Under the pieces are notes generated by a model that worked only from the letters and a program-made list of their open reading frames with translations, was not told the DNA's origin and made no database searches. A stretch of DNA of 64,000 nucleotides, from the NCBI GenBank assembly GCA_944384905.1, contig CALWVE010000008.1, positions 1 to 64,000 on the forward strand, given 5' to 3'. A program made the position numbers and the translations under genes. Source of the stretch: an uncultured Clostridia bacterium (GTDB lineage: Bacteria > Bacillota > Clostridia > Oscillospirales > Acutalibacteraceae). Positions 52,073 to 56,359 of this stretch are shown here, in pieces (positions within the stretch are counted from its first letter, which is position 1; the number at the start of each line of letters is the position of its first letter).

Positions 52073-52148
52073 AGGGGTATAGCTCAGTTGGTAGAGCAGT
52101 GGTCTCCAAAACCACGTGCCGAGGGTTCGAGTCCTTCTGCCCCTGCCA
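52073..52148 (+). tRNA. tRNA-Trp (CCA)
   Basis: 76 bases with encoded CCA end. Acceptor stem AGGGGTA/TGCCCCT with one G-T pair, D-loop AGCTCAGTTGGTAGAGC, anticodon loop CTCCAAA with anticodon CCA, T-arm GAGGGTTCGAGTCCTTC. Confidence 0.97.
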
Positions 52149-52153
52149 GATAT

Positions 52154-52230
52154 GGCCCGGTAGTTCAGTTGGTTAGAACGCTAGCCTGTCACGCTAGAGG
52201 TCGACGGTTCGAGCCCGTTCCGGGTCGCCA
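52154..52230 (+). tRNA. tRNA-Asp (GTC)
   Basis: 77 bases with encoded CCA. Acceptor GGCCCGG/CCGGGTC with one wobble pair, anticodon GTC in the loop CTGTCAC, T-arm with GGTTCGAGC. Confidence 0.97.
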
Positions 52231-52270
52231 ATAAAAACATCGGCAGTCTTTTGGCTCCATGTTTTTATCT

Positions 52271-52346
<76 letters not shown>

Positions 52347-52347
52347 T

Positions 52348-52377
52348 AAAAGCACTTGCTTTTGCGAGTGCTTTTTT
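52348..52377 (+). terminator. Terminator of the tRNA cluster
   Basis: 12-bp stem with one wobble pair (52348-52359 with 52364-52375) ending in six T, directly after tRNA-Thr. Confidence 0.85.
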
Positions 52378-52403: not shown

Positions 52404-52443
52404 AAAAACCGATGCCTGCATCAACAGACATCGGTTTTTGTTA
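52404..52443. terminator. Second terminator hairpin, bidirectional
   Basis: Perfect 11-bp stem (52404-52414 with 52429-52439), flanked by A-run and T-run. On the minus strand it can end the nuclease gene transcript. Confidence 0.75.
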
Positions 52444-52489
52444 TTTTTAATATGAAAAATGAATGCGATACAGCCCCACCGATTTGCAA

Positions 52490-53266
52490 TTAATAACAAA
52501 TCACTTTCTCTTCTACTTCTTGAATAATATCTTTCGAAATATTGTTGACATCAAGCACATATTCTATATTCAAACGAGGATTAAATAATCCTACATTTTG
52601 AATGTTTTCAAATATCTTTTGGCCAGAATGTTTTCCCATAATCCAGTACATTAATAGTTGCAACGTATTTCTGCTAGTTGGTTTTGCCTTGCTAACTTTA
52701 AAATCCCAGAGAGTATCTTGAGTTAAAAAGTCTCCATCACCAGAATTGACAGCTTTTGTATACCCATTTGGCTCAAATGTAAAACCGTGCTTTAAAACAG
52801 GCCCACGCTTTTCTAAAAAATTAACACTTCGTTCAACTAATATTTTTATATTTTCAATCGTATCTGTGTCCGGATTAATTTCATCGCTGCCTTTTGCCAT
52901 TACGGCATCTCTAATATTTCTAAACCACACATCATAAGTAACAATTTTACAAGCACTTATAATAGATTGATCATCCAATCCTTTTATCTTACTCAACAAC
53001 CCACTCGCAATTTCAAAGGAATTTTCTTGTCTGATTTGTGCAATACTTGCCCCCTTCATAGAAATCTCAAATACATCTAAAATATCCTCCCCAATTAGCA
53101 GTCTACTCATATAGTCAACCGCCATCCCAATTAAAGATGCATGTATATTTTCATTTTCATTTAATGTCCATTTGTCTTCAAATTCATGTTTAGCAAATTC
53201 AGATAATTTCACATAACCACCACGCGGTTGTTTTATTTGTTTAACACGAGCTGTAACTGACGACAT
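52490..53266 (-). CDS. PD-(D/E)XK nuclease-like protein in an AT-rich insert
   Basis: 258 residues, no named family recognised. The C-terminal half carries a plausible RecB/PD-(D/E)XK site: GDGDF (176-180), a beta-turn, then DFK (D188, K190), followed by LQLLMYW (202-208) resembling the QXXXY helix of these nucleases. The N-terminal half is helical. The ATG at 53266 follows GGGGGTG at five bases. It is markedly more AT-rich than its surroundings: one sampled 60-base line here is 30% G+C, compared with 55% in a sampled line of the AAA gene. The small gene 25 bases upstream looks cotranscribed. A defence role is an inference only. Confidence 0.6.
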   Translation of the reverse strand: MSSVTARVKQIKQPRGGYVKLSEFAKHEFEDKWTLNENENIHASLIGMAVDYMSRLLIGEDILDVFEISMKGASIAQIRQENSFEIASGLLSKIKGLDDQSIISACKIVTYDVWFRNIRDAVMAKGSDEINPDTDTIENIKILVERSVNFLEKRGPVLKHGFTFEPNGYTKAVNSGDGDFLTQDTLWDFKVSKAKPTSRNTLQLLMYWIMGKHSGQKIFENIQNVGLFNPRLNIEYVLDVNNISKDIIQEVEEKVICY

Positions 53267-53291
53267 AAGAACACCCCCATTGCACAATTAA

Positions 53292-53591
53292 TTATTCAAA
53301 TAAATATCCGCCATTTGGAACATCTACACAAATTTCAATTTTTTCTTCTGACGTTGACAACACAGAACCTCGAACAGCAACAATATCCACACCATTTTTA
53401 TCAAATATTGTCGGCATGACGTTTTGATTTATTTTTGCTTGTGAAAGAAATTTTAAAAAATGATTTTTGTTCATCGACTTTCCTACTAACACGATTTTCT
53501 TGTCTGTTTCTTTATCTCTAAGTCTGGCATTTAAATTCCCTTTTTCGTTATACTCTTCAATATAACAAGAAAGCTTAATTACTTGAGTCAT
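53292..53591 (-). CDS. Small AT-rich partner gene of unknown function
   Basis: 99 residues, acidic-basic mixed, probably beta-rich, no family recognised (VIKLSCYIEEYNEKGNLNA at the start, VPNGGYLFE at the end). The ATG at 53591 follows GGAGTG. It precedes the nuclease-like gene on the same strand by 25 bases and has the same AT-rich character, so both were probably acquired together. Confidence 0.55.
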   Translation of the reverse strand: MTQVIKLSCYIEEYNEKGNLNARLRDKETDKKIVLVGKSMNKNHFLKFLSQAKINQNVMPTIFDKNGVDIVAVRGSVLSTSEEKIEICVDVPNGGYLFE

Positions 53592-53628
53592 ATAATTCAC
53601 TCCTAATTTTTAATCTGATTTTTAAATT

Positions 53629-55599
53629 TTAAAGAACATCAAAATCATCGGGCAGAAGCGTTTCGAGATCGTCGCTGTTTTCGCGCAGAATCCGACGCGA
53701 CTGCGAAAGTACGGCGTCTTCCACCACATTGCGAGCCAATCGCCCGTTGCCGCCGGTTCGGGCGTCCGCAGCCTGTACAGCCGAGAAATAGGCGGTCAGC
53801 GGCGCCAAAGCCGCTTCATCGATCCGGCAACCGCGGTCTTTCGCCAAGCCGCAGGCAATGCGCGTCAATTCCTCGCCGGTATAATCCGGGAATTCAATTC
53901 GATTGGGGAAGCGCGAACGCAGGCCGGAATTTGCCTGCAAAAACTGTTCCATTTCCCGGGAATAGCCCGCGAGGATCACCACCAGATTATCGCGGTAATC
54001 TTCCATGGCTTTGACAAGCGTGTCGATCGCTTCCAGACCAAACGTATCGTCCTGTCCCCGGCAAAGCGAATAGGCTTCATCGATAAACAGCACACCGCCC
54101 AGCGCGGCGCGCACGGCCTGCATGGTAAGCGGCGCGGTATGGCCCACATATTTTCCCACCAGATCGGCGCGGGTCACTTCCACAAGCTGGCCTTCGCTCA
54201 GCGCGCCAATGGCTTTAAGATACCGGGCGGCTAAACGCGCAATCGTGGTTTTGCCCGTTCCTGGGTTGCCGGTAAAAATCATATGCATGGAAATCGGCGC
54301 GGTTTTGAGCCCCCGCGCGCGCCGCATTTCGTTGACGCGGCAAGTTTCTTCAAGCGAAAGGATATAATCTTTGACAGGCTCCAGCCCCACAATCTGTTCA
54401 AGCTGCGCCCGCACGGCCGCGCGTTCATCTTCGGCCGGCTTTTCCTGAATCAGCGGAACCGAAGGCACATCGTCTTCGGCCAAAAGAACCGGCTGATTTT
54501 CACGAACCGTCAGCAAGCCCTGCTTCAGGCCGCGGTTATTCAGTTTGGCGTCGCCTACCGCGCGGAAAAGTTCCTCTGCCCTTTTTTGAATCGACGGTAC
54601 GCCAAGGGTAGAATCAAACCGCTCGGCCAGCCAATTTTCCAGAGAAGCATCAATCTTGAGCGCAAGGCTAAACTGTCCCTGTGCGCGGCGAACAAGCTCT
54701 TCCAGCTGACGTTTGGCAAGCTGACTGCGAGCCTCCTTAGAAAAAGGCTCTGTGCTGCAAACCGCGGAAACACAGGATAAAAATCCTGCGCCGAACAAGC
54801 CGGCCAGCCGCTGTGCGGACTGCTCGGTTTCGAACACCAGAATCCGCCCTTCACACGAAAGGCTGCGCACCGTATGCGGCACCAGCGCCGTGTCGATATC
54901 CACCAGCATACCTTTTTGCAGCGTATAACGCCCGGGAAGAGCCAGTTTGCCCTGCATGGACAGTTCCCCAACCTGACGCAAAACGGCGGGAGAAGCCTCC
55001 TGTTCGCCTGTAAACAGCAGTACAGGAGCATGGCTTTCCAGCGCGGTGTACAGATCCTGTACAAACACTTTCTGAGAATCCGAGGAAGGATACTGCGAAA
55101 GATCGATCGCGGCCGGACGCACTTCACGGAACAATCCCGCCCGGTTCAAAGCGGCGCAAATTGTTTCTATGGCAGTTGTTCGCCCGGAACCAGGCGTCCC
55201 CGTTACGACCAGCACCGCACGCGGAGACGCCTGTTCCCCGCGCAGCAAAAACGCGCCCTCAAAAGCCCGGGACAGTTCTTCCGCAAAAGTATCCTGCCCG
55301 ATCAAACGCTGCTTTACAGTCCCTGCCAGGGCAGAAAACGTCGCTTCTTTTTGCGAAGCATCTACGGCTGCCGACGACGAAACCGAGGCCGCCAGGCCAT
55401 CCGCATGCATATTGCGTTCCATTTCTTCCAGTTCGCGGCGCACCGATTCATTGGCGGCCGTGATCTCATCGAGATTTTCCTGCAAAACCTGCGCAGGCTC
55501 TTTAGCCGCCGCACCGCCCGGCTTTACAACGGGATTCAGATTCAGTTTTCCGTTTGAAAAAATCGCATTCAAAAGCTCGTCGATATCGTCTTTCGGCAT
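53629..55599 (-). CDS. CbxX/CfxQ (SpoVK-like) AAA+ ATPase with degenerate first domain
   Basis: 656 residues with two AAA+ modules. The first (about 95-290) has GTPGSGRTT (134-142), in which the Walker A lysine is Arg (R140), and no clear Walker B acid pair. The second (about 400-600) is complete: GNPGTGKTT (444-452), Walker B LFIDEAY (504-510), sensor VVILAGYSREM and arginine finger region GLRSRFPN. The second module matches the CbxX/CfxQ/SpoVK family. A 60-residue N-terminal helical region has possible coiled coil. The ATG at 55599 follows AAAGGAGAG. Partner unknown; it lies 13 bases after aroD. Confidence 0.85.
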   Translation of the reverse strand: MPKDDIDELLNAIFSNGKLNLNPVVKPGGAAAKEPAQVLQENLDEITAANESVRRELEEMERNMHADGLAASVSSSAAVDASQKEATFSALAGTVKQRLIGQDTFAEELSRAFEGAFLLRGEQASPRAVLVVTGTPGSGRTTAIETICAALNRAGLFREVRPAAIDLSQYPSSDSQKVFVQDLYTALESHAPVLLFTGEQEASPAVLRQVGELSMQGKLALPGRYTLQKGMLVDIDTALVPHTVRSLSCEGRILVFETEQSAQRLAGLFGAGFLSCVSAVCSTEPFSKEARSQLAKRQLEELVRRAQGQFSLALKIDASLENWLAERFDSTLGVPSIQKRAEELFRAVGDAKLNNRGLKQGLLTVRENQPVLLAEDDVPSVPLIQEKPAEDERAAVRAQLEQIVGLEPVKDYILSLEETCRVNEMRRARGLKTAPISMHMIFTGNPGTGKTTIARLAARYLKAIGALSEGQLVEVTRADLVGKYVGHTAPLTMQAVRAALGGVLFIDEAYSLCRGQDDTFGLEAIDTLVKAMEDYRDNLVVILAGYSREMEQFLQANSGLRSRFPNRIEFPDYTGEELTRIACGLAKDRGCRIDEAALAPLTAYFSAVQAADARTGGNGRLARNVVEDAVLSQSRRILRENSDDLETLLPDDFDVL

Positions 55600-55612
55600 A
55601 TGCGCTCTCCTT

Positions 55613-56359
55613 TCAATCTTCTCCCCCGTGCAGTGCACACAGCATCGTATGCAGGGTGCGCACATCAAGCTGACCGGGCGCGGAAGCCTGCGCCGCCGCA
55701 CCAAATGTCAGGCAAGAGCCGAACGTTTCTCCCGATACGCGGCTGACGGCGCCTAGTTTTCCCATGGCCATGGAAATAACCGGTCCGAATGCATCCGCCG
55801 CCCGCCGGGTAGCCCGCAGCAGGTTCAGCACATCCTGCGCATTCTGCGGCATGACGGCAATTTTGGGAAGATCCGCGCCCAAATCGTGCATCCGTTCAAA
55901 GCGTGCGTACAAAACATCTTCCTCGGGTGTCGCGTGAAAATCGTGGCTGGAAACCACCGAAATCACACCGGCATCGCGGGCGGCTTCGATCATCTCCGGC
56001 ACAAACGAACCGGAAAACAGCTCGATATCGATCAGGTCGGCGCAGCCGCTGTCGAGAATTGTCAAAAGCAGCTCCCGATAAGATTCCGCGTCAAGCGCAC
56101 GCAGGCCGCCTTCCCGCTGCGTGCGGAATGTACACAAAAGCGGCCGCGGACAGGCTTTTCGCAGCGCAGGCAGAAGACTGCGAACGTTTTGTAGTTCTCC
56201 ATCTAACGCGTCGATCCGCCATTCCACCAGATCAACCGGCAGATTTTCGAGCCCCGCCAGTTCCGCAAGCAAAGCTTTTTCGTCTTTTCCCATCAGCGGG
56301 ACACAGATTTTGGGCATTCCTTCGCCCAATACCAAAGATTTTACCCGAACAGGCTGCAT
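55613..56359 (-). CDS. aroD: 3-dehydroquinate dehydratase, type I
   Basis: Third step of the shikimate pathway, using a Schiff-base lysine. 248 residues; substrate-binding EWRID (46-50), catalytic His in VVSSHDFHATP, catalytic Lys in LPKIAVMPQ, and the terminal SGETFGSCLTFG. AAGGAGG precedes the ATG. It shares a minus-strand run with an SDR gene (10 bases upstream) and the AAA gene, and complements aroE and aroK on the plus strand. Confidence 0.95.
   Translation of the reverse strand: MQPVRVKSLVLGEGMPKICVPLMGKDEKALLAELAGLENLPVDLVEWRIDALDGELQNVRSLLPALRKACPRPLLCTFRTQREGGLRALDAESYRELLLTILDSGCADLIDIELFSGSFVPEMIEAARDAGVISVVSSHDFHATPEEDVLYARFERMHDLGADLPKIAVMPQNAQDVLNLLRATRRAADAFGPVISMAMGKLGAVSRVSGETFGSCLTFGAAAQASAPGQLDVRTLHTMLCALHGGED

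Follow-up and report, generated by a model that had tools for sequence, protein, structure and literature searches.

The PDC families are phage-defense candidates that were found by 'guilt-by-embedding', mostly without functional tests (PMC12988326, PMC10855318). One of these families, PDC-S61, is listed along with several other defense systems in one Streptococcus thermophilus strain (PMC11514479); this was the sole paper naming PDC-S61 found in our literature search, which found no published functional or phage-protection test of the family. The window analyzed here is a stretch of 64,000 nucleotides from an uncultured Clostridia bacterium. In it a first-pass annotation, made from the sequence alone, had described an insert of two minus-strand genes, more AT-rich than their neighbors and lying beside three tRNA genes and two terminators. 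The most likely reading, with appreciable doubt remaining, is that a single DNA nuclease gene of the PDC-S61 PD-(D/E)XK family was acquired here by horizontal transfer and serves against phages or plasmids. The features of the locus are collected in Table 1.

Table 1 Features of the insert and of the sequences on either side of it
Feature	Positions	Strand	Basis and remarks
tRNA-Trp, tRNA-Asp, tRNA-Thr cluster	52073..52346	+	ARAGORN and Rfam (Trp 52073-52148, Asp 52154-52230, Thr 52271-52346); convergent to insert
Intrinsic terminator after tRNA-Thr	52348..52375	+	Hairpin
Hairpin with A/T tails on both sides	52404..52439		Inverted repeat I3; between tRNAs and insert
Left copy of imperfect 13-bp direct repeat, ATTTTTAATATGA	52443..52455		Brackets insert
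PDC-S61-family PD-(D/E)XK nuclease gene, 258 aa	52490..53266	-	PADLOC match, conserved residues, AlphaFold2 model
Small gene, 99 aa	53292..53591	-	ORF and ribosome-binding site; upstream of nuclease, likely operon
Right copy of imperfect 13-bp direct repeat, ATTTTTAATCTGA	53606..53618		Brackets insert
Upstream gene, 691-aa protein with two AAA+ domains	53629..55704	-	Normal GC; context, outside insert

All of these first observations on the layout were confirmed. The two minus-strand ORFs are present, separated by 25 bp, and each is preceded by a plausible ribosome-binding site; the three tRNA genes and two hairpins were also recovered, and the hairpin closer to the insert is probably a bidirectional terminator. 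When the 56 non-overlapping ORFs of at least 95 aa within the window were ranked by composition, the two insert ORFs had the lowest GC3 values (0.233 and 0.252, against a mean of 0.553 with an SD of 0.086), which placed them ~3.5 to 3.7 SD below the window mean. The GC content of the two genes was 0.30–0.33, compared with 0.51 for the window.

The insert sits where a run of host genes reaches its 3' end, ahead of the tRNA cluster, and the neighbors of the nuclease gene are the AAA gene, the tRNAs and a TetR regulator. On the same strand as the double-AAA+ gene, and 37 bp past its stop codon, the small gene begins. The double-AAA+ protein gave a weak, generic PADLOC match; a good relative of it was found in just 1 of 30 further genomes sampled from the family, and therefore that part of the neighborhood is variable too. 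The 13-bp direct repeat has one mismatch between its copies, and shuffling produced such a flank-to-flank match in 0.4% of cases (P about 0.004, post hoc). Because the repeat was spotted post hoc and is AT-rich, we take it as a hint of the insertion borders. No integrase or transposase was found at the insert, and a repeat search found no att-like direct repeat derived from tRNA ends around it; a tRNA-integrated mobile element is thus not supported, and nothing in the tRNA surroundings points to site-specific integration. An empty site could not be demonstrated in the sampled loci of two same-family relatives, because the genus consists of one genome and those two loci share little beyond the TetR gene.

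The first-pass annotation had assigned neither protein to a known family. This was correct for Pfam and NCBIfam, whose models did not match the larger protein, and incorrect for the larger protein in PADLOC, because it is a full-length member of PDC-S61 (PDLC05052; E 1.9e-105, protein residues 1–258 against profile positions 1–250 of 253). A weaker PADLOC match, to RTasPDDEXK, covered residues 84–247 (E 5e-16). The window gene is therefore another copy of a catalogued candidate, and no new system.

The GDGDF...DFK...QLLMY motif noticed earlier is present in the larger protein and conserved in its relatives. The predicted active site consists of D51 (at the motif I position), D179, D188, K190, Q203 and Y207. 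Across an alignment of 19 homologues, down to 22% identity, the last five of these residues were invariant, and the position of D51 held Asp or Glu. The conserved motifs are G-D-G-D (D179), D188-F-K190 and Q203-L-L-M-Y207, the last being a QxxxY after the lysine. Judged by sequence, Asp51 would occupy the expected G-x-x-V-[H] position of RecB-type motif I; in the RecB group, and in the MGME1, AddAB and AdnAB nucleases, the motif I residue is typically His. The predicted nuclease motifs are intact.

An AlphaFold2 model of the protein, built from 13 aligned sequences, had a mean pLDDT of 92.7 and a pTM of 0.88. With Foldseek alone, no PDB entry matched this model below E 0.001, the best being Dna2 at E 0.011. 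VIA-align matched the model to MGME1 with a Z of 12.1 (rmsd 3.5, 154 aligned), followed by AdnA of AdnAB (10.4), AddAB (9.8), the Argonaute-associated Cas4 (9.6), DinG (8.8) and Dna2 (7.9); best Z values of 7–8 are common without a clear match, whereas the top rows here were higher and all belonged to one enzyme class, the PD-(D/E)XK nucleases. The best matches in a viral structure library were helicase-nuclease proteins and Cas4/PD-(D/E)XK exonucleases. The model, itself a confident one, shows a PD-(D/E)XK exonuclease fold of the RecB/MGME1/AddAB/Cas4 type, with the core fold present, and the invariant motifs agree with the RecB/Cas4-type nuclease that had been proposed. A nuclease step for the predicted enzyme is well supported by the modeled fold and the motifs.

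Relatives of the protein, 22–62% identical, were scattered over Bacillota, Synergistota, Actinomycetota, plasmids and putative viral contigs. They were found on nine genome contigs (including Peptococcaceae, Lachnospiraceae, Erysipelotrichaceae, Synergistaceae and Globicatella), in 31 plasmid records (including Bifidobacterium and Microbacterium) and, when a viral collection was queried with an alignment, on eight putative viral contigs. Single-sequence queries of that collection with the nuclease and the small protein gave no matches, and among 50,697 phage records one, itself unverified, carried a relative. A full-length copy occurred in 2 of 398 genomes drawn from across the phylum; within the same family or order, the genome studied here was the only sampled one with a copy. 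In a tree whose forks were mostly poorly resolved, the nuclease of the window lay nearest to rows from a viral contig and from a genome belonging to a different bacterial family. Lateral acquisition of the insert is supported.

Some relatives had extra C-terminal parts, with a helix-turn-helix in two. In these two, from viral contigs (L031:6001-7089 and L032:2321-3373), an HTH_17 is fused to the C-terminal side of the nuclease, a fusion suggestive of DNA targeting or self-regulation. In an 863-aa protein (L072:3940-6531), a distant PDC-S61-like region is joined to a calcineurin-like phosphoesterase domain. Several relatives were disrupted by an internal stop codon or a change of reading frame (L006:8001-8834, L007:7941-8771, L037:3787-4613 and L071:6283-7084), in L007 around a short tandem duplication; three breaks lay near residues 49–61, around motif I. 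A partial tandem copy (L003:8001-8186) preceded another relative.

Most relatives were solitary, and many lay alone between housekeeping genes. At about 8 of 29 sampled loci they had type I restriction-modification genes, Gabija, other candidates or methyltransferases alongside. Type I restriction-modification genes adjoined four relatives (L005, with hsdM/hsdS, L019, L026 and L027). PDC-S30 also adjoined the L005 relative; elsewhere the adjoining gene was PDC-S22 (L037), Gabija GajA (L035), a DNA methyltransferase (L024) or an abortive-infection protein (L025). N6_Mtase was found in 4 of 145 neighbor genes, where a frequency of 2.05 per genome predicts about 0.12, and the P of about 1e-5 is a rough guide because the sample of loci is small, biased and plasmid-rich. 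The survey of neighborhoods that had been suggested yielded defense neighbors and no conserved pairing with the small gene. Together with the PDC-S61 match, the defense genes beside relatives make the larger gene a likely defense gene, in line with the defense link raised by the first-pass annotation.

L071 and L002 are examples of solitary copies. In L071 (4091-9041), a broken gene is flanked on one side by a gyrase B-type gene and on the other by a gene for a probable topoisomerase A-type subunit, an arrangement that suggests insertion between housekeeping genes. The L002 copy lay between metabolic genes and had a GC content of 0.32 within a host of 0.59; the flanking gene and its relatives share only about 40% identity, so that no empty site was found for this copy.

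Two further copies lay inside large tRNA arrays. One is on a 198-kb Bifidobacterium longum plasmid, between tRNA-Thr and tRNA-Ala (L021:5938-6759), with an RNA ligase gene about 1.2 kb downstream; the other is on a 75-kb viral contig, between tRNA-Trp and tRNA-Thr (L036:5899-6858). The loci contain 23 and 34 tRNAs, respectively, and the arrays are ordered differently. Proximity to tRNAs was considered as a rule for the family and rejected, as most relatives had no tRNA within several kilobases. These placements are a small extra puzzle.

The preferred reading, a single-gene defense nuclease, draws on computed features of the protein and its relatives: family membership, fold, intact motifs, foreign composition, patchy spread and a repeated defense neighborhood. 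The defense role itself is likely, and rests on association with defense genes. The enzyme would bind metal through D51, D179, D188 and K190 and degrade the DNA of invading phages or plasmids. Attack would probably be from ends or single-stranded stretches, as with its closest structural relatives MGME1, AddAB, AdnAB and Cas4, and the nuclease may exploit ends or intermediates left by restriction enzymes or phage replication. Alternatively, it may be triggered in a suicidal response.

The main rival reading is that the gene encodes a free-standing selfish or array-associated homing-like endonuclease, which copies itself into cut recipient DNA and lies near defense genes since both accumulate in mobile regions. 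We consider this unlikely. It is kept alive because two relatives (L021, L036) sit within tRNA arrays of mobile elements, and endonuclease genes, known to be abundant in tRNA arrays, are the most widespread embedded genes in those of mycobacteria (PMC5966550). Also in keeping with such an element, the gene often stands by itself as an insertion among housekeeping genes, in some cases far more AT-rich than its host (L002), and several copies are broken. The fold and QxxxY motif, however, belong to the RecB/MGME1 exonuclease type, a type not known to us as a homing-endonuclease class. The loci differed in insertion site, phage records almost never carried the gene (1 of 50,697), and an excess of type I restriction-modification neighbors is not predicted for a homing element.

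The small gene raised the possibility of a two-gene module, toxin-antitoxin-like or nuclease-regulator, in which the 99-aa protein controls the nuclease. The gene is likely real, having a good ribosome-binding site and one clear homologue of its product, on an Arthrobacter plasmid (39% over 80 aa). Joint arrival and co-transcription of the two genes are probable, because they lie on the same strand 25 bp apart and have similarly low GC3. However, the gene for the Arthrobacter homologue lies beside no PDC-S61 gene, none of about 30 other PDC-S61 genes had a homologue of the small protein nearby, and no other small neighbor, upstream or downstream, was shared among 26 relatives. Since the small gene was absent beside every other PDC-S61 gene examined, the pairing is local. 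A controlling role for the small protein is accordingly quite improbable, and the first-pass annotation's module of a nuclease with a small partner was not upheld. We conclude that the small gene is probably a passenger or local cofactor, not required by the PDC-S61 family. Folding of the small protein from its single sequence gave a pLDDT of 56.5, too poor for use; its weak matches in Pfam, NCBIfam, PHROGs and PDB were rejected as noise, as was the G359 match, which falls in an unrelated-looking 371-aa ORF.

Because two mobile tRNA arrays contain PDC-S61 genes and a tRNA cluster adjoins the window copy, a recurrent tie to tRNA clusters was also proposed, in which PDC-S61 would be a stand-alone exonuclease-fold effector that guards or mobilizes them rather than an ordinary restriction accessory; we hold this to be very doubtful. 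A host DNA-repair or recombination nuclease with odd composition for neutral reasons, although its class provides the closest folds, is already disfavored and scarcely credible, given that no other genome sampled from the same family and order has the gene, that its composition is foreign, and that its nearest relatives in the tree come from another bacterial family and a viral contig.

An orphan nuclease has thus been placed in a catalogued candidate defense family, and that family has been given a fold, an intact predicted active site, and a spread over several phyla and many plasmids. The placement, fold, predicted active site and spread make a single-gene anti-phage test worthwhile.

Among known systems, Cas4 and the Argonaute-associated Cas4 (ACE1) have the fold class in common with the window nuclease (Z 8–9.6); the window nuclease, however, has no CRISPR or Argonaute genes among its adjacent genes, and it lacks the four-cysteine Fe-S cluster of Cas4, because its sequence contains just two cysteines. 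RTasPDDEXK, the PADLOC nuclease tied to defense reverse transcriptases, has a related nuclease domain, but in contrast to RTasPDDEXK/DRT no reverse transcriptase gene adjoins the window nuclease. The MGME1, AddAB and AdnAB nuclease domains share its fold (Z about 10–12) and its D...DxK and QxxxY motifs, whereas the window nuclease is only 12–17% identical to them, has no helicase partner, and has Asp at what, by sequence, would be the motif I position. The closest likeness is to PDC-S61 itself (PADLOC-DB v2.0.0, PDLC05052): although no recognized defense gene was identified directly beside the window copy and a private small gene precedes it, the two agree in full-length match, length class, single-gene organization and motifs.
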